Shown piece by piece: positions 7,242 through 21,870 of a stretch of DNA of 64,000 bases. The notes under the pieces were generated by a model, which did not search any database, had not been told where the DNA came from, and saw nothing but the letters and a program-made list of their open reading frames with translations. Made by a program: the position numbers and the translations under genes. The DNA comes from Nocardiopsis ansamitocini (lineage in GTDB: Bacteria; Actinomycetota; Actinomycetes; Streptosporangiales; Streptosporangiaceae): NCBI RefSeq assembly GCF_030268225.1, contig NZ_BSQG01000003.1, positions 158,991 through 222,990 on the forward strand. Direction: 5' to 3'. Position 1 is the stretch's first letter; each line of letters begins with the position of its first letter.

Positions 7242-8000
7242 TCAGGGGTGCAGCCGGGCCCGTTGCTTCTCGCTCTCCCGGACGAGCCAGGGCTCCGTCA
7301 GTCGCGCGTCCGCGCAAGGGCTGTTGCGCCGTAGCCCGTCGAGGTAACGGCGGTCCGCCGCCACCCGCTCGTGGAACGCCGTGGCGTCTCCCACCGATCC
7401 GTGGCCGCACACCACGTGGCGCACCGGCAGTGCGGCCAGCCGGTCCAGGCCGGCCGAGTAGTCGCCGAGCGGGTCGGCCCCGGTCAGGTCCAGCAAGGGG
7501 ATCTCGATGTCGGAGCACATGTCCCCGCAGATCAGCACCCCCGTATCGGGGAGAAACAGTGCGGCGTGTCCGGCGGAGTGCCCGTCATGAGCCACGACGA
7601 CCGCCTCCGTGCCCGGCCAGGGAAGGCGGTCGGCCCCTTCGGGCAGTGGGGTGAGCGCGCCCACCAGCCGCAGGTCATGGCCCGGCGCGTCCGCCGCCAG
7701 TTCGGCGAGCAGTTCCGCGCGGTTGGTGTGTGCGGCTTCCACGGCCCGCGCGGTCGCGTACCGTGGGACCTCTCCCAGGTCGGAGTGCCAGAGCACGTGG
7801 TCCCAGTGCGCGTGTGTGGAGAAGCCCGCGGTTACCGTCAGCCCGTGTCCGCGCACCGCAACGCCCAGTGCCACTATCTCGGCCACCGCGACCCCGGGGT
7901 CCACCACCAGGCACTCGTTCCCGGAGACGATCACTGTCGAATTCGTCCGGCACCACGGGGAGGTGCCCACCAGCACACCGGGTGCGATCTCGCTCAGCAT
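7242..8000 (-). CDS. MBL-fold metallo-hydrolase
   Basis: 252 residues with a complete metallo-beta-lactamase metal site: THAHWDH (HxHxDH) near residues 62-68, a further His in HDGHSAGHAALF, Asp in LICGDMCSD and His in VVCGHGSVG. This is a glyoxalase-II-like or general thioester/lactonase-type hydrolase; the substrate cannot be assigned. The ATG at 8000 has AGGATGG upstream. It is divergent from the polymerase gene, with 80 bp between the starts for both promoters. Confidence 0.87.
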   Translation of the reverse strand: MLSEIAPGVLVGTSPWCRTNSTVIVSGNECLVVDPGVAVAEIVALGVAVRGHGLTVTAGFSTHAHWDHVLWHSDLGEVPRYATARAVEAAHTNRAELLAELAADAPGHDLRLVGALTPLPEGADRLPWPGTEAVVVAHDGHSAGHAALFLPDTGVLICGDMCSDIEIPLLDLTGADPLGDYSAGLDRLAALPVRHVVCGHGSVGDATAFHERVAADRRYLDGLRRNSPCADARLTEPWLVRESEKQRARLHP

Positions 8001-11400: not shown

Positions 11401-12126
11401 TCATGGCAAATCAAGCATGATCTCGCGGGCTGCGGCCCGGACCCGGAGCCCCAGTTCTGCGCGTTCCTCGGGGGTGAGCGCAGGTGCTTCCAGGTAAACC
11501 ACCGACACGGCGGCCGGACCCGCCGTCGAGGTAATCGGAGCCGCTACCGACGACATGCCGGGTAGGACCTCGCTGCGGGAGTAGGCCCACCCCTGTTCGC
11601 GCGCGCGGGCCACCTCGGGGCGCTCGCCCTGGCGCGGCGGCCAGGCGGACAGCAACGCCATACCGGGGGCGCCCTGTTCCAGGGGGTGGCGCATACCCGG
11701 TGCGTAGGCGATGTGGGCAACGGACTGGCGGGGTTCCACCGACAGCAGTGTGATCGCCTCGCCACCACTGGGGACGACCAGGAAAGCCGTCTTGCCGGTT
11801 TCGTTGGCCAGGAGCGACATCGCCGGCAGTGCCGCCGACTGCAGACCGGGGGAGACGCCACGGGCCAGGACGGGGAGTCCGAGCCCCAGTTCGTAGGAGC
11901 CTTCGCCGGTCCTGCCGACGAGGCGGTGGTCCTCCAACGTGCGCAGGATCCGATAGATGATGGATCGGTGCACCTTGAGTTCGCCGGCCAGGCCGGCGAT
12001 GGTCATCGGAGCCCCGGCCTCGTGCAGAATCTCCAGGACCCGGATTCCCCGGTCGAGCGTTTGGGACCGGGTTCCGGGGAAGTCCGGCCGCGGACCACGG
12101 TCGCCCCCTGGGGCGGGTTCCGTCAT
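11401..12126 (-). CDS. IclR-family transcriptional regulator
   Basis: 241 residues from the ATG at 12126, which has GAGGAG 7 nt upstream. The N-terminal winged HTH (about 20-85) contains TIAGLAGELKVHRSIIYRIL. A C-terminal IclR effector domain (about 90-241) includes a GMRHPLEQGAPGMALLSA segment. IclR regulators usually control a neighbouring catabolic gene set in response to a small organic acid. It lies 146 bp downstream of ggt on the same strand and about 2 kb from the divergent homogentisate operon, either of which could be its target. An inverted repeat at 12190-12208 may be its own operator. Confidence 0.88.
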   Translation of the reverse strand: MTEPAPGGDRGPRPDFPGTRSQTLDRGIRVLEILHEAGAPMTIAGLAGELKVHRSIIYRILRTLEDHRLVGRTGEGSYELGLGLPVLARGVSPGLQSAALPAMSLLANETGKTAFLVVPSGGEAITLLSVEPRQSVAHIAYAPGMRHPLEQGAPGMALLSAWPPRQGERPEVARAREQGWAYSRSEVLPGMSSVAAPITSTAGPAAVSVVYLEAPALTPEERAELGLRVRAAAREIMLDLP

Positions 12127-12189
12127 GCGCGTTCTCCTCAGCACTCTGGTCCGGTCCCCGTGGGGCGAACCTTGCTCGGTTAACGAGTC

Positions 12190-12272: not shown

Positions 12273-14051
12273 CTATCGACCCACCGCGTACCCCTGCGAA
12301 CCCCGCGGATTCGCCGCCGCGGAGAGCGCACCGGTATCGGGGTCGCGGCGCACGGCACTGAGCCGGCCCAGTGACCAGGGGCCCGACTCGACTACTCGGT
12401 GGCCGCGGCGGCGCAGCTCGGCGATCTCCTGGGTCCCCATCCTCGACTCCGCCACCATCTCGCCCGGCACGGTCTCGCGCGGGTGGAAGGAACTGGGGAA
12501 GGCGTTGGTGTGGAACATGGGAGCGTCGATCGCCTCCTGCAGGTCCATGCCCCCGTGCGCCAGACGCAGGAAGAACGTCAGTGACCATTGATCCTGCTGG
12601 TCGCCGCCCGGGGTTCCCAGTGCGAGCACACCCTCTCCCTCCCGGGTGACCAGGGTGGGCGTCAGCGTACTGCGCGGTCGTTTTCCCGGTGCCACCACGC
12701 TGGGCGAACGGGGGTCCAGCCAGAACATCTGCGCCCGGGTCCCCAGGGGAAAGCCCAGTTCCTCGATCACAGGGGAACTGGCCAGCCATCCGCCGCTCGG
12801 GGTGGCCGAGACGAGGTTGCCGTTTCGGTCGACCACGTCGACGTGGCAGGTGTCGCCGCGGTGCTCGCCGGTCGCCCCGAGCGTCGGCTCGCCGCCGGCG
12901 CGGTCGATCGCCGCGGTACTGCCGCTCAGGTAGCGCTCGGGCAGGTACGGCACCCGCCCATCGGGGGACCCCGGGCGCAGTTCCAGCGATGCGGTCTCGC
13001 CCACCAGGGTGGCCCGTTGCTCGGCGTACTCGGTGCTCAGCAGCGTTGCGAGCGGTACGTCGGTGAAAGCGGGGTCGCCGTACCACGCCTCCCGGTCGGC
13101 GAAGGCCAGCTTGGCGGCCTCGGTGACAAGGTGGGCGAACTCGGGCGAGAGTACGTCCGCCTTGCCGGTTTCCAGCGCCTCGGCCAGTGTGAGTTGTTGA
13201 AGGAACACCGGCCCCTGCCCCCACGGTCCGGTCTTGTGCACCGTCAGCCCGTTGTGCTGCACGCGGGTGGTCTCTTCGTAGCCGGCCCGCCATTGGGCCA
13301 GGTCGGCTCCGGTGAGCAGGGCGCGGCGCGGTATCCCCGAAGCGTCGGGTACGGGGGCGGAGAGAAAACCGGTGATCGCCTCTGCCACGAAGCCCTCGCG
13401 CCAGATCCGGCGGGCCGCGTCGATCTGCCCTTCCCGGGTCCGCGCCGCCGACCGCGCCTCGCTCGCGATCCTGCGATAGGTCGCGGCCAGTACGGGGTTG
13501 GTCTGCCAGGTCCCGGGGGCGGGGGCCCGGCCGTCCCGCAGGTACAGCCGGGCCGATCCGGGCCACCAGCGGGTGAACACCTCCGACAGCTCGTTGATCT
13601 TCGCCGAGATCTGCGCGAGAACGGGGAAGCCGTGTGCGGCGTAGCCGATCGCCGGTTCCAGGACGTCTTCCAGCCGCATCGTGCCGTAGTCGCGCAACAG
13701 GAGCATCCATGCGTCGAACGCGCCGGGCACGCACGCGGCCAGTACACCGCTGCCGGGGATGCGATCCAGCCCGTCGAAGGCGGCCGGGACGGCCGCTGCC
13801 GGAGCCGGTCCCTGGCCGCACAGCACCTGGGGAGACTCCCCGGCCTTGTGGAAGAGGACGGGCACTTCACCGCCCGGGCCGTTCAGGTGCGGTTCGACCA
13901 CCTGCAGGGTGAAGCCGGCGGCCACTGCCGCGTCGAAGGCGTTTCCGCCCCGCTCCAATGCGGCCATTCCCACCGAACTCGCCAGCCAGTGTGTGCTGGC
14001 GACCATGCCGAACCTGCCGCGCAGCTCCGGTCGGGTGGTGAATCCGGGCAT
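12273..14051 (-). CDS. ggt: Gamma-glutamyltransferase family protein
   Basis: 592 residues from the ATG at 14051, with GGAGG 5 nt upstream. This is an N-terminal-nucleophile hydrolase precursor that normally self-cleaves before a Thr. Here the autocleavage/nucleophile Thr is in HRGDTCHVDVVDRNGN (about residue 400), giving a large subunit of about 399 and a small one of about 190 residues. The substrate loop reads TPSGGWLASSP and the glycine pocket LGTPGGDQQDQ. No signal peptide is seen, so it is probably cytosolic, unlike the periplasmic E. coli enzyme. It could hydrolyse gamma-glutamyl amides; Cys rather than Thr/Ser after the nucleophile is a subfamily feature. An IclR gene follows it and the aromatic operon is divergent. 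Confidence 0.85.
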   Translation of the reverse strand: MPGFTTRPELRGRFGMVASTHWLASSVGMAALERGGNAFDAAVAAGFTLQVVEPHLNGPGGEVPVLFHKAGESPQVLCGQGPAPAAAVPAAFDGLDRIPGSGVLAACVPGAFDAWMLLLRDYGTMRLEDVLEPAIGYAAHGFPVLAQISAKINELSEVFTRWWPGSARLYLRDGRAPAPGTWQTNPVLAATYRRIASEARSAARTREGQIDAARRIWREGFVAEAITGFLSAPVPDASGIPRRALLTGADLAQWRAGYEETTRVQHNGLTVHKTGPWGQGPVFLQQLTLAEALETGKADVLSPEFAHLVTEAAKLAFADREAWYGDPAFTDVPLATLLSTEYAEQRATLVGETASLELRPGSPDGRVPYLPERYLSGSTAAIDRAGGEPTLGATGEHRGDTCHVDVVDRNGNLVSATPSGGWLASSPVIEELGFPLGTRAQMFWLDPRSPSVVAPGKRPRSTLTPTLVTREGEGVLALGTPGGDQQDQWSLTFFLRLAHGGMDLQEAIDAPMFHTNAFPSSFHPRETVPGEMVAESRMGTQEIAELRRRGHRVVESGPWSLGRLSAVRRDPDTGALSAAANPRGSQGYAVGR

Positions 14052-14175
14052 GGACGCCTCCAGGGGGTGCGGGGACGGGCGTTTCTCGTGGGCGAGCGGC
14101 CAGGTTACGCAACCGTGCCGCGGGCGCGGCAACCCCGCCGACACCCCCTTGTCGGTGTTCCATGTCACATCTATG

Positions 14176-14196
14176 ATCGTTCTAAATAAGAATGAT
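14176..14196. promoter_or_regulatory. Operator-like palindrome between ggt and the aromatic operon
   Basis: ATCGTTCT-AAATA-AGAATGAT, an 8-bp inverted repeat with one mismatch, lies in an AT-rich patch 33 bp upstream of the MBL gene start and 125 bp upstream of ggt. Position and composition suit a regulator site for the divergent promoters. Its half-site differs from the repeat at 12190-12208, so two regulators may be involved. Confidence 0.55.
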
Positions 14197-14228
14197 GTGT
14201 TCGATATCCGATCTAAGGGTGGCCGCAC

Positions 14229-15188
14229 ATGGGTAAGCCGTTCGCGAGTTCAGCCGATCTGGAAGACAAGCAGCAGACCCTGGAGGTCCTCGCCGAAGGC
14301 GTGTACACGCTCACCGCAGAGGGGGACCCCAACGTCGGAGCCGTCGAGGGGGAGGACTTCCTGGTCTGCTTCGAGGCACTGGCCACTCCTGCCGCAGCCC
14401 GGGACTGGCTGGCCAAACTGCGCGAGCACACCGACAAACCCATCCGCTACCTGGTGCTCTCCCACTACCACGCGGTCCGCGTCCTGGGGGCCAGTGCCTT
14501 CGACGCCGACGTCGTCATCGCCCACGACAACACCCGCCTGCTCATCGACGAGCGCGGCAAACAGGACTGGGACAGCGAGTACGGGCGCATGCCGCGGCTG
14601 TTCAAGGACCCCTCCTCCATTCCCGGCACGACCCACCCCGACGTCACCTTCGACGACCGCCTCACCATCGATCTGGGCGGCGATCGCGGCGACCTGGTCC
14701 TGCAGTACTGCGGCCGGGGCCACACCGAGGGGGACGTCGTCGCTTGGCTTCCCCGCCACCGCATCCTCTTCGCCGGTGATCTCGTCGAGGCCGAGGCCGC
14801 GCTCTACACCGGTGACGCCTTCCACCACGACTGGGCCGGGGCCACCCTCGACCGGGTCGCCGCCTTCGAGGCCGAGGCACTGATCGGGGGCCGCGGCCCG
14901 GTCGTCAGGGGGCGTGCGGCCGTGGACGCGGCCATCGCCCAGACCCGCGGTTTCCTGGACACCATGCGCGAGCAGGTCGGTGGCGTGCATCGGCGCGGGG
15001 GCACCCTCAAGGAGGCGTTCACCGCCGCTCACGCCGCGCTCGCTCCGCGTTTCGGCGGATGGCCCATCTTCGAGCACTGCCTTCCCTTCGACGTGGCCCG
15101 CTTGTGGGAGGAGTACGAGGGGCAGGAGCGGCCCACGATCTGGACCGCCGAACGCGACCGGGAGGTGTGGGAGCAGTTGCAGGGATGA
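14229..15188 (+). CDS. MBL-fold hydrolase of the homogentisate operon (HxHxVR variant)
   Basis: 319 residues. The MBL fold is clear: VLSHYHAVRVLGAS near residues 78-91, a GRGHTEGD His (about 161), Asp in LFAGDLVE (about 180). The usual HxHxDH metal motif is HYHAVR here, so the Asp and third His of the canonical site are replaced; metal use is likely altered. I recall the same SHYHAVR variant in MBL proteins next to homogentisate genes in other bacteria. Its reaction is unknown; a hydrolytic step on a pathway lactone or thioester is possible. First gene of a five-gene plus-strand run; the next start is 40 bp downstream. Confidence 0.8.
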   Translation: MGKPFASSADLEDKQQTLEVLAEGVYTLTAEGDPNVGAVEGEDFLVCFEALATPAAARDWLAKLREHTDKPIRYLVLSHYHAVRVLGASAFDADVVIAHDNTRLLIDERGKQDWDSEYGRMPRLFKDPSSIPGTTHPDVTFDDRLTIDLGGDRGDLVLQYCGRGHTEGDVVAWLPRHRILFAGDLVEAEAALYTGDAFHHDWAGATLDRVAAFEAEALIGGRGPVVRGRAAVDAAIAQTRGFLDTMREQVGGVHRRGGTLKEAFTAAHAALAPRFGGWPIFEHCLPFDVARLWEEYEGQERPTIWTAERDREVWEQLQG

Positions 15189-15228
15189 CGGTGACCGCCC
15201 GCTGTCCAGCGACCGAACGGGAGGAACC

Positions 15229-16947
15229 ATGACCCCCGCCGTGCCCGCCCCCGCTTCTCACCGGTCCCGTCGTCCGCCCGTCCTCATCAGCGGTGCCGGC
15301 CCGGTCGGACTGGCCACTGCCTTGACCCTCGCCCGGTTCGGTGTGCCCAGCACCGTCTTCGAGGCCCGCGCCGAACCCGACGCCGAGCACGCCGTCCGCA
15401 GCGGTTCCAAGGCGATCTGCTTCCAACGCGACGTCCTCGACGTCCTCGCCCGCCTGGGGGTGGCAGAACCACTGCTCGCCGAGGGCACCACGTGGACGAC
15501 CGCGCGCACCTACTACCGCGGGCGCGAGGTCCGCACGGTCGCCTTCCCCGGCGCGCCGGCGCGCGCCGGCCTTCCGGCCCCGCTGCCGCCGTGGATCAAC
15601 ATCTCCCAGGCCAGGGTCGAACAGGAACTGCTGCGCGCGGCAGCGGTGCAGCCACTGGTCACGGTCCACTACGACCACCGCGTCACCGCGGTCGACCAGG
15701 ACACCCGCGGAGTGACCGTGCGCACCACCGGTGGCGGCGGCGCCCGGCTCGCCCACGGCACCCACCTGGTGGGAGCGGACGGGGCGGGCGGCGACGTGCG
15801 CAAGCTCCTGGGGGTCGGCTTTCCCGGTGGCTCCTTCGACGACCGATTCCTCATCTGCGATATCCGCGCCGGGCTGCCGTTTCCCAACGAACGCCGGTTC
15901 TATTTCGACCCCGAGTGGAACCCAGGACGCCAGGTCCTCGTGCACCAGTGCCCCGACTCGACATGGCGTATCGACTGGCAGGTGCCCGCGGACTACGATC
16001 TCGATGCCGAGCGCGACAGCGGAGCCCTCGACCAGCGGATCCGCACGATCGTGGGGGACCGGCCCTACGATCTCGTATGGTCCTCGGTCTACCGGTTCCA
16101 CGAGCGCTGCGCCGAACGTATGCGTTCGGGACGGGTGCTGCTCGTCGGGGACGCCGCCCACCTCTACGCGCCGTTCGGGGCACGCGGCCTCAACTCCGGC
16201 ATCCACGACGCCGAGAACGCCGGATGGAAGATCGCCGCAGCCCGTGGAGCACGCCCCGGCCCGGCCGATGCCCTGTTGGAGAGCTACCACATCGAGCGCT
16301 GGGCCGCCGCCCAGGAGAATCTGCGGGTCACCGGCGCCACCATGCGTTTCCTCGTACCGCAGGACGAGCAGCAGGCCCGGTTGCGGCGAACGACACTGGA
16401 ACTGGCCGTGACCGATCCCGCTGCGCGCGATCGCATCGACTCCGGGCGACTGGCCGAGCCCTACTGGTACCCCCGATCGCCGCTGATCACCCCGCCTGCG
16501 GTGCCGTCCGCTCCGATGGCGACCGGCGGTCAGCACCCGCCCGTTCCAGGAGTGATATGCCCCGACGGTCCCTACTTCCCGTCGGGAGAGACCGAGCCGG
16601 TTCGGATGCGCAGCGTGCTCGGGCCGGGCCTCACCGTCATCGTGGCCCGTGCGGACCAAGCCCGCGCACTCGCCGACGTGGGAGTCGGACTGCCCGTTGC
16701 GGTGCGCATCTTCGTTCTGGACGACATCGACCCCACCGGCACCCTCGCCGCGGCGTTGCGCTGCGACGGCAGTACCGCCCACCTGGTCCGTCCCGACGCG
16801 CACCTGTGCGCGGTGCTGCCGGCCGGTGACGGCGCCGCGGTCCGTGCGGCTCTGCGGCGAGTGTGCGGGGACCCGCCCGAGGGCCCGCCGCGGCCCGGAA
16901 CCGGAGAGCGTTCGGCAGGGCAGGCCCCTGCCCCCGTGGAGCACTGA
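15229..16947 (+). CDS. FAD-dependent aromatic monooxygenase (PHBH/MhpA class)
   Basis: 572 residues from the ATG at 15229, preceded by GGGAGGAACC. The dinucleotide motif SGAGPVGLATALTLARFG lies at about 20-37 and the second FAD motif GDAAHLYAPFGARGLNSG at about 306-323, typical of single-component class A hydroxylases. The C-terminal 150 residues resemble the thioredoxin-like tail of phenol-hydroxylase relatives. Placed before homogentisate dioxygenase, it probably ring-hydroxylates a phenolic acid to homogentisate; 3- or 4-hydroxyphenylacetate are candidates (inference). No separate reductase or coupling protein is adjacent. Confidence 0.85.
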   Translation: MTPAVPAPASHRSRRPPVLISGAGPVGLATALTLARFGVPSTVFEARAEPDAEHAVRSGSKAICFQRDVLDVLARLGVAEPLLAEGTTWTTARTYYRGREVRTVAFPGAPARAGLPAPLPPWINISQARVEQELLRAAAVQPLVTVHYDHRVTAVDQDTRGVTVRTTGGGGARLAHGTHLVGADGAGGDVRKLLGVGFPGGSFDDRFLICDIRAGLPFPNERRFYFDPEWNPGRQVLVHQCPDSTWRIDWQVPADYDLDAERDSGALDQRIRTIVGDRPYDLVWSSVYRFHERCAERMRSGRVLLVGDAAHLYAPFGARGLNSGIHDAENAGWKIAAARGARPGPADALLESYHIERWAAAQENLRVTGATMRFLVPQDEQQARLRRTTLELAVTDPAARDRIDSGRLAEPYWYPRSPLITPPAVPSAPMATGGQHPPVPGVICPDGPYFPSGETEPVRMRSVLGPGLTVIVARADQARALADVGVGLPVAVRIFVLDDIDPTGTLAAALRCDGSTAHLVRPDAHLCAVLPAGDGAAVRAALRRVCGDPPEGPPRPGTGERSAGQAPAPVEH

Positions 16948-16983
16948 GGTGCCGTTCGACGGCACTGACGAAAGGAGCGTCCG

Positions 16984-18150
16984 ATGCCCTACTACCGCGC
17001 GGTCGGGGAGATCCCCCGCAAACGCCACATCGTCTTCCGCAAACCCGACGGTGGTGTCTACGCCGAAGAGCTGATGGGAGAAGAAGGCTTCTCCTCGGAC
17101 TCCTCACTGCTCTATCATCGCCATCTCCCCACCGCCATCGTCGGCGCCGAACCGGTTGCCGAGGCCGGGGACGGGGCGGCACAGCCCAACCTGCCGCTGT
17201 CCCCGCGGCACTTTCGTACCGGGGACCTGCCTGCGGGAGGGGACCTGGTGACAGGGAGGCGCCTGCTCGCGGCCAACGCCGACGTGCGCATCTGTCTGGC
17301 CACCACCGGTCAACCGAGCGAGCTGTACCGTAACTCGATGGGCGACGAGACCGTGTACGTCCAGTCGGGGGCGGCCCGGTTCGAGTCGACCTATGGTGTG
17401 ATCGATGCGGTCGAGGGCGACTACGTCGTCATCCCCACCGGAACCATTCACCGCTGGGTCCCCCGCGAAACGGTCACCGCGCTGGTCATCGAGGCGGCAG
17501 GGCACGTCCGGCCGCCCAAGCGCTACCTCTCCGCCAACGGTCAGCTCCTGGAGCACGCGCCTTACTGCGAGCGGGATCTACGCGGCCCGGTGGAACCGTT
17601 GGTGGTGGAGGGTGACGAGGCGGTGGCCCCCACCCCGGTACTGGTCCGGACCCGCGGCGGCCTCACCCGGCTGACGTTCGCCCACCATCCCTTCGACGTG
17701 GTCGGCTGGGACGGCTACCTCTATCCCTACGCCTTCAACATCAACGACTTCGAGCCCGTGGTGAAGAAGACGCACGCGCCGCCGACGGTCCACCAGACCT
17801 TCGAGGGGCCGGGGTTCGTGGTGTGCTCGTTCTGCCCACGCCCACTCGACTTCCACCCCGATGCGGTCCCCATCCCCTACAACCACCACAACGTGGACTC
17901 CGACGAGTTCATGTACTACGTCGGCGGGGACTACGCGGCCCGCAAGGGCTCGGGAATCGACGTCGGATCGGTGTCCCTGCACCCCGCCGGGTTCACCCAC
18001 GGCCCGCAGCCGGGTGCGGTCGAAGCCGCGCTGGGCGCCGCCCGGACGACGGAGATGGCCGTGATGATCGATACCTTCCGGCCACTCGACCTCGGTCCGG
18101 CGGCGCTTGAGTGCGAGGACCCCGGTTACGCCTGGAGCTGGGCCCGCTGA
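16984..18150 (+). CDS. hmgA: Homogentisate 1,2-dioxygenase
   Basis: 388 residues. Opens the ring of homogentisate with O2 to give 4-maleylacetoacetate. The cupin core carries the iron-binding residues expected: PYNHHNVDSDEFMYY (His and Glu near 300-307) and HPAGFTHGPQPG (His near 338). The N-terminal strand MPYYRAVGEIPRKRHI and NSMGDETVYV are also family-like. The cytosolic enzyme would be Fe(II)-dependent. The stop codon overlaps the next start (TGATG), showing translational coupling. There is no maleylacetoacetate isomerase in the window, so isomerisation may be glutathione/mycothiol-dependent and encoded elsewhere, or spontaneous. Confidence 0.92.
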   Translation: MPYYRAVGEIPRKRHIVFRKPDGGVYAEELMGEEGFSSDSSLLYHRHLPTAIVGAEPVAEAGDGAAQPNLPLSPRHFRTGDLPAGGDLVTGRRLLAANADVRICLATTGQPSELYRNSMGDETVYVQSGAARFESTYGVIDAVEGDYVVIPTGTIHRWVPRETVTALVIEAAGHVRPPKRYLSANGQLLEHAPYCERDLRGPVEPLVVEGDEAVAPTPVLVRTRGGLTRLTFAHHPFDVVGWDGYLYPYAFNINDFEPVVKKTHAPPTVHQTFEGPGFVVCSFCPRPLDFHPDAVPIPYNHHNVDSDEFMYYVGGDYAARKGSGIDVGSVSLHPAGFTHGPQPGAVEAALGAARTTEMAVMIDTFRPLDLGPAALECEDPGYAWSWAR

Positions 18151-19014
18151 TGGCAGGAACCGCCGTCCTGTTGCGCGGCCTCGTCGACGACGCGGGCCTG
18201 TTCCCCCCCCACCGCACTGCCTATGGGGCAGGCGTTGGCACGCCACCGGGCGGACCGCATCGTGGCCGACCCCATGCTCACCGGGCGTTTTCTGTGCCCG
18301 GTGAGCCGGTGGGACGAGTTGTGCGCGGGACTCGGGCCCGGGGAACAGGTGGACGTCGGGCTGATCCTGGACACCGAGCAGGCGCTGCTCGGCGGGGTCG
18401 CCGTCGCCGATTCCCGGGTTCGGGTCACGCACTACGAGGTCAGGGCCCCCGGAGCCGGCATCGGCAAGGCGCTCCGTCCCCTCGTGCGTACCGGTGCCGA
18501 CGGGCGGGGCACGCCAGGAGAGGGCCGGGTGCGGCTCCCGGTCTATTTCGAGTTCGACCGGGGACCGGAGGGCCGCGGCAACCTCGCGGGGCTGGCCGGC
18601 GCCGCCGGTCTGCGGGCCAAGGTCCGGTGCGGCGGAGCACGCGCCGACCTGTTCCCCGGCGCTACGGAGCTCGCCGCGTTCATCGGCGCGTGCGCCGAAC
18701 ACGGGGTGCCGTTCAAAGCCACCGCGGGGTTGCACCACGCTGTACGCCACACCGATCCCTCGACCGGGTTCGTGCACCACGGCTACCTCAACCTGCTGTC
18801 GGCCACTGCCGCGGTGCTGGTCGGGGAAGGCGAGGAGGGGGCCCGCCGGGAACTGCTCCGCGATGACCCCGCTGCTCTCGCCGAGCGGGTCCTGGCACTG
18901 GACGAGGACACTGCCGTCGAGGTCCGGGAACTGTTCATCGGGTACGGCTCGTGCAGTACGCGCGATCCGGTGACCGATGCCCGCGAACTCGGCCTCCTCG
19001 ATCCGCCCCGGTGA
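18150..19014 (+). CDS. Conserved actinobacterial protein of the aromatic operon, frameshifted at a C8 tract
   Basis: Reading from the ATG at 18150 (overlapping the hmgA stop) gives MAGTAVLLRGLVDDAGLFPP, then the frame fails at eight consecutive C at 18203-18210. Removing one C continues as TALPMGQALARHRADR into the long open frame that ends at 19014. I recall homologues starting with RGL(V/L)DDA..FPP and containing VPFKxTAGLHHAVRHTD, as here near 18710-18755, so both parts belong to one gene of about 288 codons. An in-frame ATG at 18223 could give a 263-residue product lacking the N-terminus. Function is unknown; its place between hmgA and fahA suggests a pathway role. Either sequencing error, a real mutation, or slippage. 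Confidence 0.75.
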
Positions 19015-19149
19015 CCGGAAGCCGGCGGTCGCCGGTCCGCCGTCCAGCCGGCATGCCCGACCCAGCAGACTGGGCTGACCCGCGGTCGGCGAGCGCGGGC
19101 TCCCGGCGGCCCGCGGAGCGGCCGGCCGCAACGACTACCAAGGAGAATC

Positions 19150-20343
19150 GTGACGAACAGTTGGGTTCCCGGAGCCGACGCGTCGGGTTTCGGCGCCGAC
19201 AACCTGCCCTACGGGGTGTTCTCCCGTGCGGGTGCCCCGCCCCGGGTGGGGGTGCGTATCGGTGACTACGTCCTCGACCTCGCCGGGGCGCTGGGCGATT
19301 CCGAGTTCTTCGCCGCATCCCTCAATCCGTTCATGGCCCGTGGTTCCACGGTGTGGCTGGCCACCCGGGCCAAGGTCGCGGGGATGCTCACCGCCGAACA
19401 GGGCCGGGCCGTGGCCGAACCGAATCTCGTTCCCCTCGGCGAAACCGTGCTGCGTCCGCCGTTCGAGGTCGCCGACTACGTCGACTTCTACTGTTCACTG
19501 GAGCACGCCTCCAACGTCGGGGCGATCTTTCGCCCCGGTGACGAGCCGCTGAAACCCAACTGGCGTCACCTTCCGGTCGCCTACCACGGCCGATCCGGCA
19601 CCGTGGTCGCCTCCGGAACCGACATCGTCCGGCCTTCCGGCCAACGGCTGCCTCCCGGCGCAAAGGAACCGGTGTTCGGGCCCAGCACCCGCCTCGACAT
19701 CGAGGCCGAACTCGGGTTCGTGGTGGGCACCAGGACCGCTTTGGGGCGGTCGGTCTCGGTCTCCGACTTCGCCGAGCACGTGTTCGGCGTCGTCCTCGTC
19801 AACGACTGGAGTGCCCGCGACATCCAGGCGTGGGAGTACGCCCCGCTGGGACCGTTCCTGGGCAAGTCCTTCGCCACGTCGGTCTCGCAGTGGGTGGTTC
19901 CCCTGGACGCTTTGGGGGCGGCCCGTTGCGCGGGTCGGGAACAGGATCCCGCGCCTCTGCCGCACTTGCGTCGGCTCGCGGACTGGGGGCTCGACATCAC
20001 CATGGAGGTGCGGCTCAACGGGCAGGTGGTGTCGCGCCCGCCTTTCGGCGCGATGTACTGGACGGCCGATCAGATGCTGGCCCACCTCACCAGCAACGGC
20101 GCCGCGCTGCGCACCGGCGACCTCTACGCCTCGGGAACGGTCTCCGGTCCCCGGAAGGACCAGCGGGGTTCCCTCCTGGAGCTCACCTGGGGCGGCAGCG
20201 AGCCGATCACCCTGGGCGACGGGAGTACGCGCACCTTCCTGGAGGACGGTGACACCGTCACCGTCACCGCTCGCGCTGCGGGTATGGCCGGGGCGACCAT
20301 CAGTCTGGGGGAGGTTACCGGGACCGTCCGGGCCGCACTCTGA
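19150..20343 (+). CDS. fahA: Fumarylacetoacetase
   Basis: 397 residues from the GTG at 19150, with CAAGGAGAATC upstream. It hydrolyses 4-fumarylacetoacetate to fumarate and acetoacetate, the last step of homogentisate breakdown. It has an N-terminal SH3-like domain (about 1-110), then the FAH catalytic fold: VDFYCSLEHASNVG (about 115-128), the metal-binding DIEAELGFVVG (about 183-193), and VLVNDWSARDIQAWEYAPLG (about 215-234). In many family members the catalytic segment has HH where EH occurs here; the His is kept. It is followed by a strong hairpin that ends the operon. Confidence 0.92.
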   Translation: MTNSWVPGADASGFGADNLPYGVFSRAGAPPRVGVRIGDYVLDLAGALGDSEFFAASLNPFMARGSTVWLATRAKVAGMLTAEQGRAVAEPNLVPLGETVLRPPFEVADYVDFYCSLEHASNVGAIFRPGDEPLKPNWRHLPVAYHGRSGTVVASGTDIVRPSGQRLPPGAKEPVFGPSTRLDIEAELGFVVGTRTALGRSVSVSDFAEHVFGVVLVNDWSARDIQAWEYAPLGPFLGKSFATSVSQWVVPLDALGAARCAGREQDPAPLPHLRRLADWGLDITMEVRLNGQVVSRPPFGAMYWTADQMLAHLTSNGAALRTGDLYASGTVSGPRKDQRGSLLELTWGGSEPITLGDGSTRTFLEDGDTVTVTARAAGMAGATISLGEVTGTVRAAL

Positions 20344-20359
20344 ACCCGCCCCGAGAACG

Positions 20360-20390
20360 AGGGCCCCGCCGGCTGTCGCGACGGGGCCCT
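20360..20390. terminator. Terminator after fahA
   Basis: AGGGCCCCG (20360-20368) pairs with CGGGGCCCT (20382-20390) 17 nt after the fahA stop, followed by GCTGATTTCT. It lies 23 bp from the convergent secreted-protein gene and may serve both. Confidence 0.8.
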
Positions 20391-20412
20391 GCTGATTTCT
20401 CGGGTCACCCGG

Positions 20413-21870
20413 TCACAGCCACGGCAGGAGGTCCCACAGTCCCCGGCCCTGCTGCGGTTCCGCGGCCGGTTTGCCGCTCGCCTCCGGCTTGTTCGCTTCC
20501 GGCTTGTCCTGCGGTGCGTTCGCCTCGGGCCTGCTGGCCTTGGTCGATGGGGAGGGGCTCGCCGCGGGCTCCTTCGTGTCCTCCCCGCTCAGGTTCAGCA
20601 CCATCTCGTCGATCTGCCACTTCTGTACGTCGAAGGCCGCGGCGCACTCGGTCACCGCCGCGGTGCGCGCCGACTCGTCGGTCCGCAGCCACGTCTGTGT
20701 GTCCCACCCGGGGATGGTCGCCCCGCTGGAGGTCACCACGCTGGAGACACCACCCGGGTCGTCCGTCTCGTCCTCGGTGGTCTCCTCGGACGGGCTCACC
20801 CCACTGATCAGGCAGCTGGAGATCTCGGCGATCATCGCTTCCGAGAGTTCTTTCTCCCCGTCCTTCTGAGGCTGCGTGGAGGGTCCTCGCGACGGCTGGG
20901 CGCCCGGCCCGCTCGGAGCGGGAGCGGCCGGGGACGGCTTGGCCACCGGTGCCCCCGTATTGCCCGGCGGGACGACCGGAGGCTCCAAGGGCGGTTTGGC
21001 GACGGGTGCGGCCGGTGCCGCAGGAGCCTCGGCCGGGGGTTTCGGCGCAGTGGCCTCGACGGGTTCGGCCGGCGTGGCCGGCTCGGCAGGTTCCGCCGGC
21101 ACAGCAGGCTCGGCGGGCTTCTGCTGGACGGGCTGCTGGGCACCCGGCGGTTGCGCGGGTTCGGCCGGCTTCTCGGACTGCCCGTCGCCCGGCCCCGCGG
21201 ACGGCCGTGCCGAGGGCACCGCGGAGGGAAGAGTGGAAGGAGCCGCCGAAGGAGTCGGCTGGCCGAATTCGAACGGGAGCGTGAACGGAGGGATGAGGCC
21301 CGGGAAGATGTCGACGGGAGTGGCGGTGCTGCCGCTTTCCCGCGCGGTCACGCCCTCGGCCATCGCGGTCAGCTCGGCGCGCTTCCACCGCTCGGGCTGG
21401 AGGAAGAGTGTGACCGCGACCCCCTCGCGGTCCAGCCAGAATGCGTCCCCGGTGGCCTCTGAGACGTAGGCGTCCCGGCCGTTGACGGCGGTTTTCTCCA
21501 GGTGTTGGGGTGCCAGGTGCGAGTAGCGCGCGTCGCGCACCTTGTCGAGTTCGGTGAGCTTGTCGTCTCGGACCACGGTCACTTTGCCGTAGACGACGCC
21601 CGGCCCCTGGACCCAGGAGACGTGCGAGGTCCGGTTGCCCCGGCGGTCGGTCGAGCTCTCGGCACTGATGCCGTACCGGTCCAGTCCCGGGGGCAGGTAG
21701 TTCACGTCGAACCCGTCGAGCGAGTAGGACGATGCTTTCTGTTGGACGACTGGCCAGGGCAAGTGCGGCGGCTGGTCGCCGGCCGCCGCAGTATTGCCTG
21801 CGGCGCCGAACGCGGCCAGGGAAACAGTGGCCGCGCCCGCCAGCGCGGTCCACCTCTGGGGCTTGCGCAT
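20413..21870 (-). CDS. Secreted protein with Pro/Ala-rich linker
   Basis: 485 residues from the ATG at 21870, with AGGAGAGG 6 nt upstream. A signal peptide (about 1-31) precedes a globular domain (about 35-195) containing YSLDGFDVNYLPPGL, then a long Pro-Ala-Glu linker (about 200-345) with many PAEPA-type repeats. A second small domain (about 350-435) contains two Cys and WQIDEMVLNLSG, then a charged tail with PEA/KPEA repeats and a hydrophobic end (LWDLLPWL). It is extracellular or wall-associated; no enzyme motif seen. The linker may span the peptidoglycan (inference). Family not recognised beyond actinobacterial hypotheticals. Confidence 0.78.
   Translation of the reverse strand: MRKPQRWTALAGAATVSLAAFGAAGNTAAAGDQPPHLPWPVVQQKASSYSLDGFDVNYLPPGLDRYGISAESSTDRRGNRTSHVSWVQGPGVVYGKVTVVRDDKLTELDKVRDARYSHLAPQHLEKTAVNGRDAYVSEATGDAFWLDREGVAVTLFLQPERWKRAELTAMAEGVTARESGSTATPVDIFPGLIPPFTLPFEFGQPTPSAAPSTLPSAVPSARPSAGPGDGQSEKPAEPAQPPGAQQPVQQKPAEPAVPAEPAEPATPAEPVEATAPKPPAEAPAAPAAPVAKPPLEPPVVPPGNTGAPVAKPSPAAPAPSGPGAQPSRGPSTQPQKDGEKELSEAMIAEISSCLISGVSPSEETTEDETDDPGGVSSVVTSSGATIPGWDTQTWLRTDESARTAAVTECAAAFDVQKWQIDEMVLNLSGEDTKEPAASPSPSTKASRPEANAPQDKPEANKPEASGKPAAEPQQGRGLWDLLPWL

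Follow-up and report, generated by a model that had tools for sequence, protein, structure and literature searches.

A candidate glutathione-independent maleylacetoacetate isomerase in a homogentisate-type operon of Nocardiopsis ansamitocini

In Pseudomonas putida U, and also in Burkholderia xenovorans LB400, 3-hydroxyphenylacetate is degraded via homogentisate by the MhaAB and HmgABC proteins (PMC3053370). That report describes the hydroxylase as a flavin adenine dinucleotide (FAD) monooxygenase of ~560 aa encoded next to hmgABC in LB400, MhaB as the 60-aa coupling protein of this 3-hydroxyphenylacetate 6-hydroxylase, and the regulator of the hmg genes of P. putida U, HmgR, as a member of the IclR type (PMC3053370). 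Here, we analyze a related operon in a stretch of 64,000 nucleotides from the high-GC actinobacterium Nocardiopsis ansamitocini (contig NZ_BSQG01000003.1), referred to below as the window. It comprises five genes on the + strand encoding, in this order, a metallo-β-lactamase (MBL)-fold protein, an FAD monooxygenase (FMO), an HmgA-like dioxygenase, an unnamed protein predicted to fold as a barrel, and fumarylacetoacetase (FahA). A first-pass annotation of the sequence had reported the same five genes in the same order, and this is confirmed. It passed over the uncharacterized gene preceding fahA, which we consider to be the most interesting one of the operon.

14229..15188, + strand: head of the operon, gene for a 319-aa MBL-fold protein, HYHAVR subfamily (Pfam and motif)
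15229..16947, + strand: class A FAD monooxygenase, candidate phenolic-acid hydroxylase (NCBIfam PRK08132 subfamily)
16984..18150, + strand: HmgA-like ring-cleavage dioxygenase of a Gram-positive clade (profiles and alignment)
18150..19014, + strand: unnamed family, predicted barrel, frame-shifted here; candidate glutathione-independent maleylacetoacetate isomerase (homology, context and model)
18203..18210, + strand: run of eight C residues (C8), site of the frame change in the unnamed barrel gene (sequence)
19150..20343, + strand: fumarylacetoacetase gene fahA (TIGR01266)

The operon and its proposed pathway

The gaps between successive genes are 40 bp, 36 bp, none (one base is shared), and 135 bp, and GGGAGGAA stands before the start of the FMO gene. 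The five-gene arrangement is beyond chance since it recurs in many genomes. As in the MhaAB-HmgABC system, the FMO of the window is encoded beside homogentisate genes, and the IclR-type regulator of P. putida U has a possible counterpart upstream of the operon. By its context, the window hydroxylase resembles MhaA. In contrast to the described system, an MBL gene precedes the hydroxylase gene, the HmgA protein is divergent, and genes for a small coupling protein and for a glutathione-dependent isomerase are missing from the operon. Homogentisate operons harboring their own hydroxylase are therefore of an already known kind; the novelty resides in the candidate isomerase and in the fixed, one-site MBL partner.

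We propose, with confidence approaching an even chance, that the operon specifies a complete peripheral-plus-central homogentisate pathway in which the barrel protein serves as a glutathione-free isomerase, all substrates and reactions being those that we infer from the sequence. The FMO, aided by the MBL protein, would produce homogentisate by hydroxylating a hydroxyphenylacetate, with 3-hydroxyphenylacetate (at C6) as the most likely substrate. The HmgA-like dioxygenase would open the homogentisate ring to form maleylacetoacetate, which the barrel protein would convert into fumarylacetoacetate in a glutathione-independent manner. For the latter step, a Cys residue of the protein itself (or a Lys imine) may add transiently to the cis-enone, allowing rotation and release, so that a protein group would replace glutathione. 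FahA would finally split fumarylacetoacetate into fumarate and acetoacetate.

The first-pass annotation had considered that the upstream hydroxylation and the MBL step fall outside of standard tyrosine catabolism. This holds for the genome of origin (42 contigs, completeness given as 100), in which neither 4-hydroxyphenylpyruvate dioxygenase (HPPD; best match of 38.7 bits for a cut-off of 277) nor canonical hmgA was found over cut-off, the sole HmgA-like match being that of the operon (67.5 bits for a cut-off of 510.75). The same genome had no match for maiA, and the FahA protein exceeded the cut-off of TIGR01266 (431.6 versus 375.3 bits). Tyrosine catabolism was rejected for this genome on the basis of the results for HPPD and canonical hmgA. 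Since HPPD did not reach its cut-off, homogentisate is likely to be produced by the FMO from a different phenolic acid, and the five genes have the appearance of a complete homogentisate operon that includes its hydroxylase. The claim does not extend to all relatives of the operon. In a set of 80 genome loci retrieved with the MBL protein (80 of its 89 relatives), an HPPD relative was present in the same locus in 34, all of the Bradyrhizobium/Afipia type, indicating that the FMO-MBL pair also stands beside the tyrosine route in these bacteria. Degradation of naringenin (fde) or isoflavones (ifc) was considered as a parallel and rejected because the FdeC-like ring-cleaving protein is of the glyoxalase type (PMC11069340), unlike the HmgA-like protein of the window.

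The gene designated hmgA by the first-pass annotation does encode a protein of the HmgA type, although not a canonical one, as its score on TIGR01015 is 67.7 bits for a cut-off of 510.75. Matches to the Pfam families HgmA_N and HgmA_C were weak (E values of 4e-6 and 1e-6). Residues H301, E308, and H339 align with the Fe ligands of canonical homogentisate 1,2-dioxygenase. The active-site His residue of the canonical VVAWHG motif is replaced by D243. Asp was found at this position in 38 of the 39 aligned rows of the Gram-positive clade (Ala in L116), which correspond to 36 distinct genes (duplicates L120/L164, L121/L161, and L123/L165), versus His in all nine canonical rows. A member of the same clade, 47% identical to the window protein and harboring the same Asp, is encoded by a Priestia megaterium plasmid (L140) in an operon of the order hppD-hypothetical-fahA-hisC-hmgA. 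The Asp residue alone is thus no argument against homogentisate as the substrate. The hypothetical gene located beside fahA in this operon is a homologue of the barrel gene of the window (blastp E 2e-16, 22% identity over 291 aa). The Priestia operon differs from that of the window in that it starts from 4-hydroxyphenylpyruvate and shows neither FMO nor MBL in the stretch displayed.

The barrel protein and its relatives

Our more general proposal, to which we assign somewhat less than even confidence, is that the barrel protein represents a new class of glutathione-independent maleylacetoacetate isomerase, an aldolase-type barrel with a catalytic Cys and lysines, which would fill the middle step of the homogentisate/tyrosine pathway in many Actinobacteria and at least some Bacillota, bacteria that make no glutathione. 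According to the same proposal, the MBL protein would be a one-metal partner of the hydroxylase and a component of hydroxyphenylacetate pathways that has not yet been described. If the barrel protein is the isomerase, it provides a new way of achieving cis-trans isomerization and fills a gap left in a textbook pathway in bacteria devoid of glutathione, and the genes annotated as encoding hypothetical proteins beside fahA receive a name.

The family is distinct from the described isomerases. MaiA/HmgC (zeta-class glutathione S-transferase (GST), TIGR01262) would share with the barrel protein the proposed reaction and the position in the pathway before fumarylacetoacetase, but sequence comparison gave no match between the two, the predicted folds differ, and the distributions are separate, as none of the 29 genomes compared contains both. 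The window protein matched neither TIGR01262 nor any other NCBIfam model. For ten members of the family, no Pfam match was better than E 0.06, with no match to DeoC, no NCBIfam match was better than E 0.14 (the best being to another family), and no sequence match was obtained in the PDB up to E 10. No description of a maleylacetoacetate isomerase other than GST proteins was found among listings and abstract openings of open-licence literature or in passages of PMC10950700, PMC2694998, and PMC11889516.

The distribution of the barrel gene would link it to homogentisate catabolism. In a phylum sample of 296 genomes, the barrel family was present in 16, an HmgA-like protein in 56, and both in 11 (Fisher P of 9e-6, uncorrected for kinship; the two counts are taken to concern the same 296 genomes, given their equal number and matching identifiers). 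Sixteen of the 17 barrel copies of this sample were examined (fragment G312:C9 was left out), and fahA adjoined the barrel gene in 14 of the 15 assessable copies. The exception, L184, lies by an MBL-FMO pair, and the copy that could not be assessed, L185, is located at a contig edge. In the genomes bearing the MBL gene, 13 of 17 barrel copies adjoin fahA, the other four being L188, L192, L195, and L196. The barrel gene occurs beside fahA together with a dioxygenase of the Gram-positive type, with canonical hmgA (L156), or with HPPD (L157, L164, and Priestia), no dioxygenase being present in the stretch in the case of L157. Actinobacteria lacking the barrel gene at the MBL locus (L034, L038, L041 to L043, L048, L058, and L061) carry a copy elsewhere. 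Comparison of 29 MBL-bearing genomes, obtained from 30 of the 80 loci with L062 left out, showed that each has exactly one of the two, the barrel family being found in 14 and maiA, over cut-off, in the other 15.

Conservation of the candidate catalytic residue follows the same neighborhood. The Cys residue is kept in 39 of the 40 aligned copies that neighbor fahA (L160, below the hit threshold, was not part of the Cys/Lys alignment), the exception being L164. The four copies that do not neighbor fahA all lack both the Cys residue and the N-terminal DxAxxFPP motif; L184, located beside MBL-FMO, retains both. Three of these four copies (L188, L192, and L196) are second paralogues of the family located beside an IclR gene, and their function may differ. 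Two further loci deserve mention. The 8 kb around the barrel gene of L193 are 84% identical to a Kibdelosporangium genome (L189), and the Actinorugispora locus L033 has the order MBL-FMO-unknown-fumarylacetoacetase, with no HmgA-like gene in the locus.

The intact protein of Actinorugispora (L033) was used for structure prediction, and the AlphaFold2 (AF2) model is an alpha/beta barrel, the fold type of class I aldolases (predicted local distance difference test, pLDDT, of 83; predicted template modeling score, pTM, of 0.84). The best Foldseek matches were weak, mostly to other barrels, with template modeling (TM) scores of 0.2 to 0.5. The top matches in VIA-align were aldolases of the deoxyribose-phosphate aldolase (DERA) type, with 1mzh at Z 13.8, a root-mean-square deviation (rmsd) of 3.7, and 205 aligned residues, followed by the homocitrate synthase and PdxJ barrels at Z ~12. 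In the model, strands 6 and 7 are predicted to carry two conserved lysines (K178 and K210 in L033, K133 and K165 in the window protein), and strand 8 is immediately followed by the Cys residue. DERA, a class I aldolase, carries its two lysines on strands 6 and 7. Comparison by hhalign of DERA with a barrel profile that omitted six copies (L164, L185, L188, L192, L195, and L196) gave E values of 0.084 for an 11-sequence DERA profile and 0.11 for E. coli DERA alone; single-sequence controls, an uneven comparison, gave 0.24 to 0.68. The weak alignment places both lysines opposite K167 and K201 of DERA. The two families differ by their low identity (11%), the lack of a significant sequence match, and their genomic company. 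The sequence comparison is too weak to claim that the barrel protein and DERA are related, and the DERA-like placement of the lysines in the model is suggestive only.

The MBL-fold protein and its monooxygenase partner

The MBL protein matched the Pfam family Lactamase_B (47.3 bits for a cut-off of 22.7; E 3e-12), and its nearest named relatives are from Actinorugispora, Streptomonospora, and Nocardiopsaceae/Nocardiopsis. The HYHAVR motif, at residues 79 to 84, is invariant in all 86 relatives aligned (the 80 genome loci and six plasmid loci) and therefore marks a subfamily. For the same reason, the possibility that the protein is a decayed enzyme was rejected. The first-pass annotation had contrasted this motif with HxHxDH. 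The motif does differ, although its final Arg is not the point, as the real changes are the replacement of Asp by Val and the loss of the last His. Class B1 MBL enzymes read HxHxDR. In the alignment, the three His residues of metal site M1 (H79, H81, and H165) are kept in 86 of 86 relatives. Residues of site M2 are altered, with Val83 in place of Asp and Arg222 in place of the last His, the latter as part of a GRG sequence found in 86 of 86 relatives; Asp184 is kept. Retention of M1 and loss of M2 would thus be a fixed trait of the subfamily, as judged from the alignment. For comparison, an open reading frame located elsewhere in the window (7242-8000, - strand) contains HAHWDH and appears by eye to encode a further MBL-fold protein, this one canonical.

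The closest structure, 8d2z, is that of an MBL superfamily protein from Burkholderia cenocepacia (46% identity, Z 40.1, rmsd 1.9, 303 aligned residues), which has the same HYHAVR motif but originates from another phylum. No paper on 8d2z was found in the open-licence literature. The next structural neighbors were chlorothalonil dehalogenase (Z 28.4, rmsd 2.9, 277 aligned residues) and, at Z ~21.5, PqsE among many other MBL structures.

The FMO of the window matched Pfam FAD_binding_3 (E 3e-49) and NCBIfam PRK08132 (435.7 bits for a cut-off of 416). In 75 of the 80 genome loci, the MBL gene has an FMO relative on the same strand at a distance of less than 500 bp. The five loci without FMO at the threshold used (L046, L065, L077, L080, and L083) were counted as misses, including L077, which begins 0.8 kb before its MBL gene. 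Relatives of fahA and hmgA were present in 60 and 59 of the 80 loci, respectively. The MBL-FMO pair was also found with hmgA and fahA in six plasmid records (Sphingobium, Paracoccus, Dinoroseobacter, Neorhizobium, Tropicibacter, and Sinorhizobium), four of which additionally contain maiA. Genes for the use of acetoacetate are close by in two Rhodococcus plasmids and in Neorhizobium and Sinorhizobium, which fits homogentisate as the intermediate. In the six proteobacterial plasmid records, a small DUF2783 gene directly follows the FMO gene (unnamed in the Sphingobium record but matching). With four query sequences, DUF2783 was detected in 48 of 53 proteobacterial MBL loci, the remaining five being the loci without FMO. 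By its size and place, DUF2783 resembles the 60-aa coupling protein MhaB, of which we take it to be the probable equivalent. On a Variovorax SRS16 plasmid (L198, 3630-7183), genes for a VOC protein, an alpha/beta hydrolase, an FMO, and DUF2783 occur together, and neither MBL nor hmgA is listed; it is possible that FMO and DUF2783 also function as a unit with another type of ring cleavage.

The fixed MBL-FMO pair points to an unrecognized partner of the hydroxylase family in Actinobacteria and Proteobacteria. In Bosea, Sphaerotilus, and Acidovorax, the MBL gene is near a VOC-family gene and no hmgA appears among the genes listed in tables that are incomplete; the Acidovorax stretch likewise has no FMO among its listed genes, from an equally incomplete table. 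This organization suggests that the MBL protein may be tied to hydroxylation and not to homogentisate as such. A Pfam search of 20 neighbor proteins of stand-alone MBL-FMO pairs (L038, L058, L059, L062, and L063) revealed no common extra pathway gene.

Alternative explanations and neighboring features

Several observations weigh against an isomerase role of the barrel protein or against parts of the pathway. The window's own copy, which the first-pass annotation had correctly placed between the HmgA-like gene and fahA, is split over two frames, the conserved N-terminus being in the frame of 18150 and the remainder in that of 18223, whereas all 18 relatives checked read through the motif in one frame. 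The change occurs at the C8 run (18203-18210); the window contains no other run of eight C or eight G, and no second copy of the family was found in this genome. The frame change may be an error of sequencing, or else the gene may be a slippage variant or dead; the pathway may therefore be impaired in this strain, unless the base count itself is in error. The division of the 29 genomes into 14 with the barrel family and 15 with maiA follows exactly the boundary between Actinobacteria and Proteobacteria and so cannot count as independent evidence. In G364, one of the 14, the only copy is the divergent L195, which lacks the Cys and one Lys, and L164, encoded in an operon of the order HPPD-homogentisate dioxygenase-unknown-fumarylacetoacetase, lacks one Lys and the Cys, providing a counter-example to the proposed mechanism. 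DERA is not among the best 50 Foldseek rows for the L033 model. DUF2783 was detected, with the same four queries, in none of the 27 actinobacterial MBL loci, and the presence of HPPD in 34 of 80 loci implies that homogentisate does not come from the FMO alone in all of these bacteria.

These points bear on a rival explanation that we regard as rather unlikely, namely a plain hydroxyphenylacetate/homogentisate operon in which the barrel protein has an accessory function or catalyzes another reaction (e.g. as an aldolase or a repair enzyme), maleylacetoacetate being isomerized spontaneously or by a mycothiol-dependent protein encoded elsewhere, or hydrolyzed directly by FahA. The frame-shifted gene would fit this explanation, as would the phylum sample, in which only 10 of the 27 genomes with an HmgA-like match of at least 47% identity hold the barrel protein and 17 do not; maiA was over cut-off in none of 33 genomes tested, indicating that other actinobacteria do without both proteins. 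Growth on homogentisate is described for Rhodococcus ruber Chol-4, and no isomerase is named in the figure legend of its cluster (PMC6498646). An accessory role is harder to reconcile with a barrel-fahA neighborhood that is kept with HPPD or FMO upstream and with either type of dioxygenase, with the fact that a single step of the central pathway has no gene in these operons, and with the loss of both the Cys and the N-terminal motif in the four copies that do not adjoin fahA. A different doubt concerns the substrate, as the low TIGR01015 score and the Asp that replaces His throughout nearly all of the clade could mean that the HmgA-like enzyme cleaves another hydroquinone and that the operon serves a different para-diol. 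This is improbable given that the same-clade enzyme of Priestia, with Asp, is in an operon with hppD and fahA in which homogentisate is the expected intermediate, that FahA is over its equivalog cut-off, and that acetoacetate-use genes adjoin the Rhodococcus versions. Compatible with the isomerase proposal, and possible although doubtful, is a catabolic role for the MBL protein alone, which would perform the first step by releasing the phenolic acid, bound as an ester, thioester, or lactone, for the FMO to act on. The position of its gene at the head of the operon, its tie to FMO in 75 of 80 loci, its occurrence near VOC-family genes, and its structural proximity to chlorothalonil dehalogenase and PqsE are in favor of this role, but the usual two-metal hydrolysis cannot operate with M2 gone, and a shared MBL fold shows no function.

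Three features lie upstream of the operon.

11401..12144, - strand: IclR-family regulator, candidate regulator of the operon (Pfam/NCBIfam, analogy with HmgR)
12273..14228, - strand: gamma-glutamyltransferase-family gene, divergent from the operon (Pfam)
14149..14177, + strand: sigma-70-like promoter match TTGTCG-17-TATGAT, 5' of the MBL gene (consensus match only)

The promoter-like match was the only one found in 14000-20500, for a mean of 0.2 in shuffled sequences, and no inverted repeat that could serve as an operator was found in 14030-14240. A divergent gamma-glutamyltransferase-family gene and an IclR regulator are also present at locus L034, and the former gene (12273-14228, - strand) could supply the pathway with a released conjugate. 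At the left end of the window, positions 1-286 consist of a tandem array of 3.2 copies of a 90-bp unit with 99% matches.

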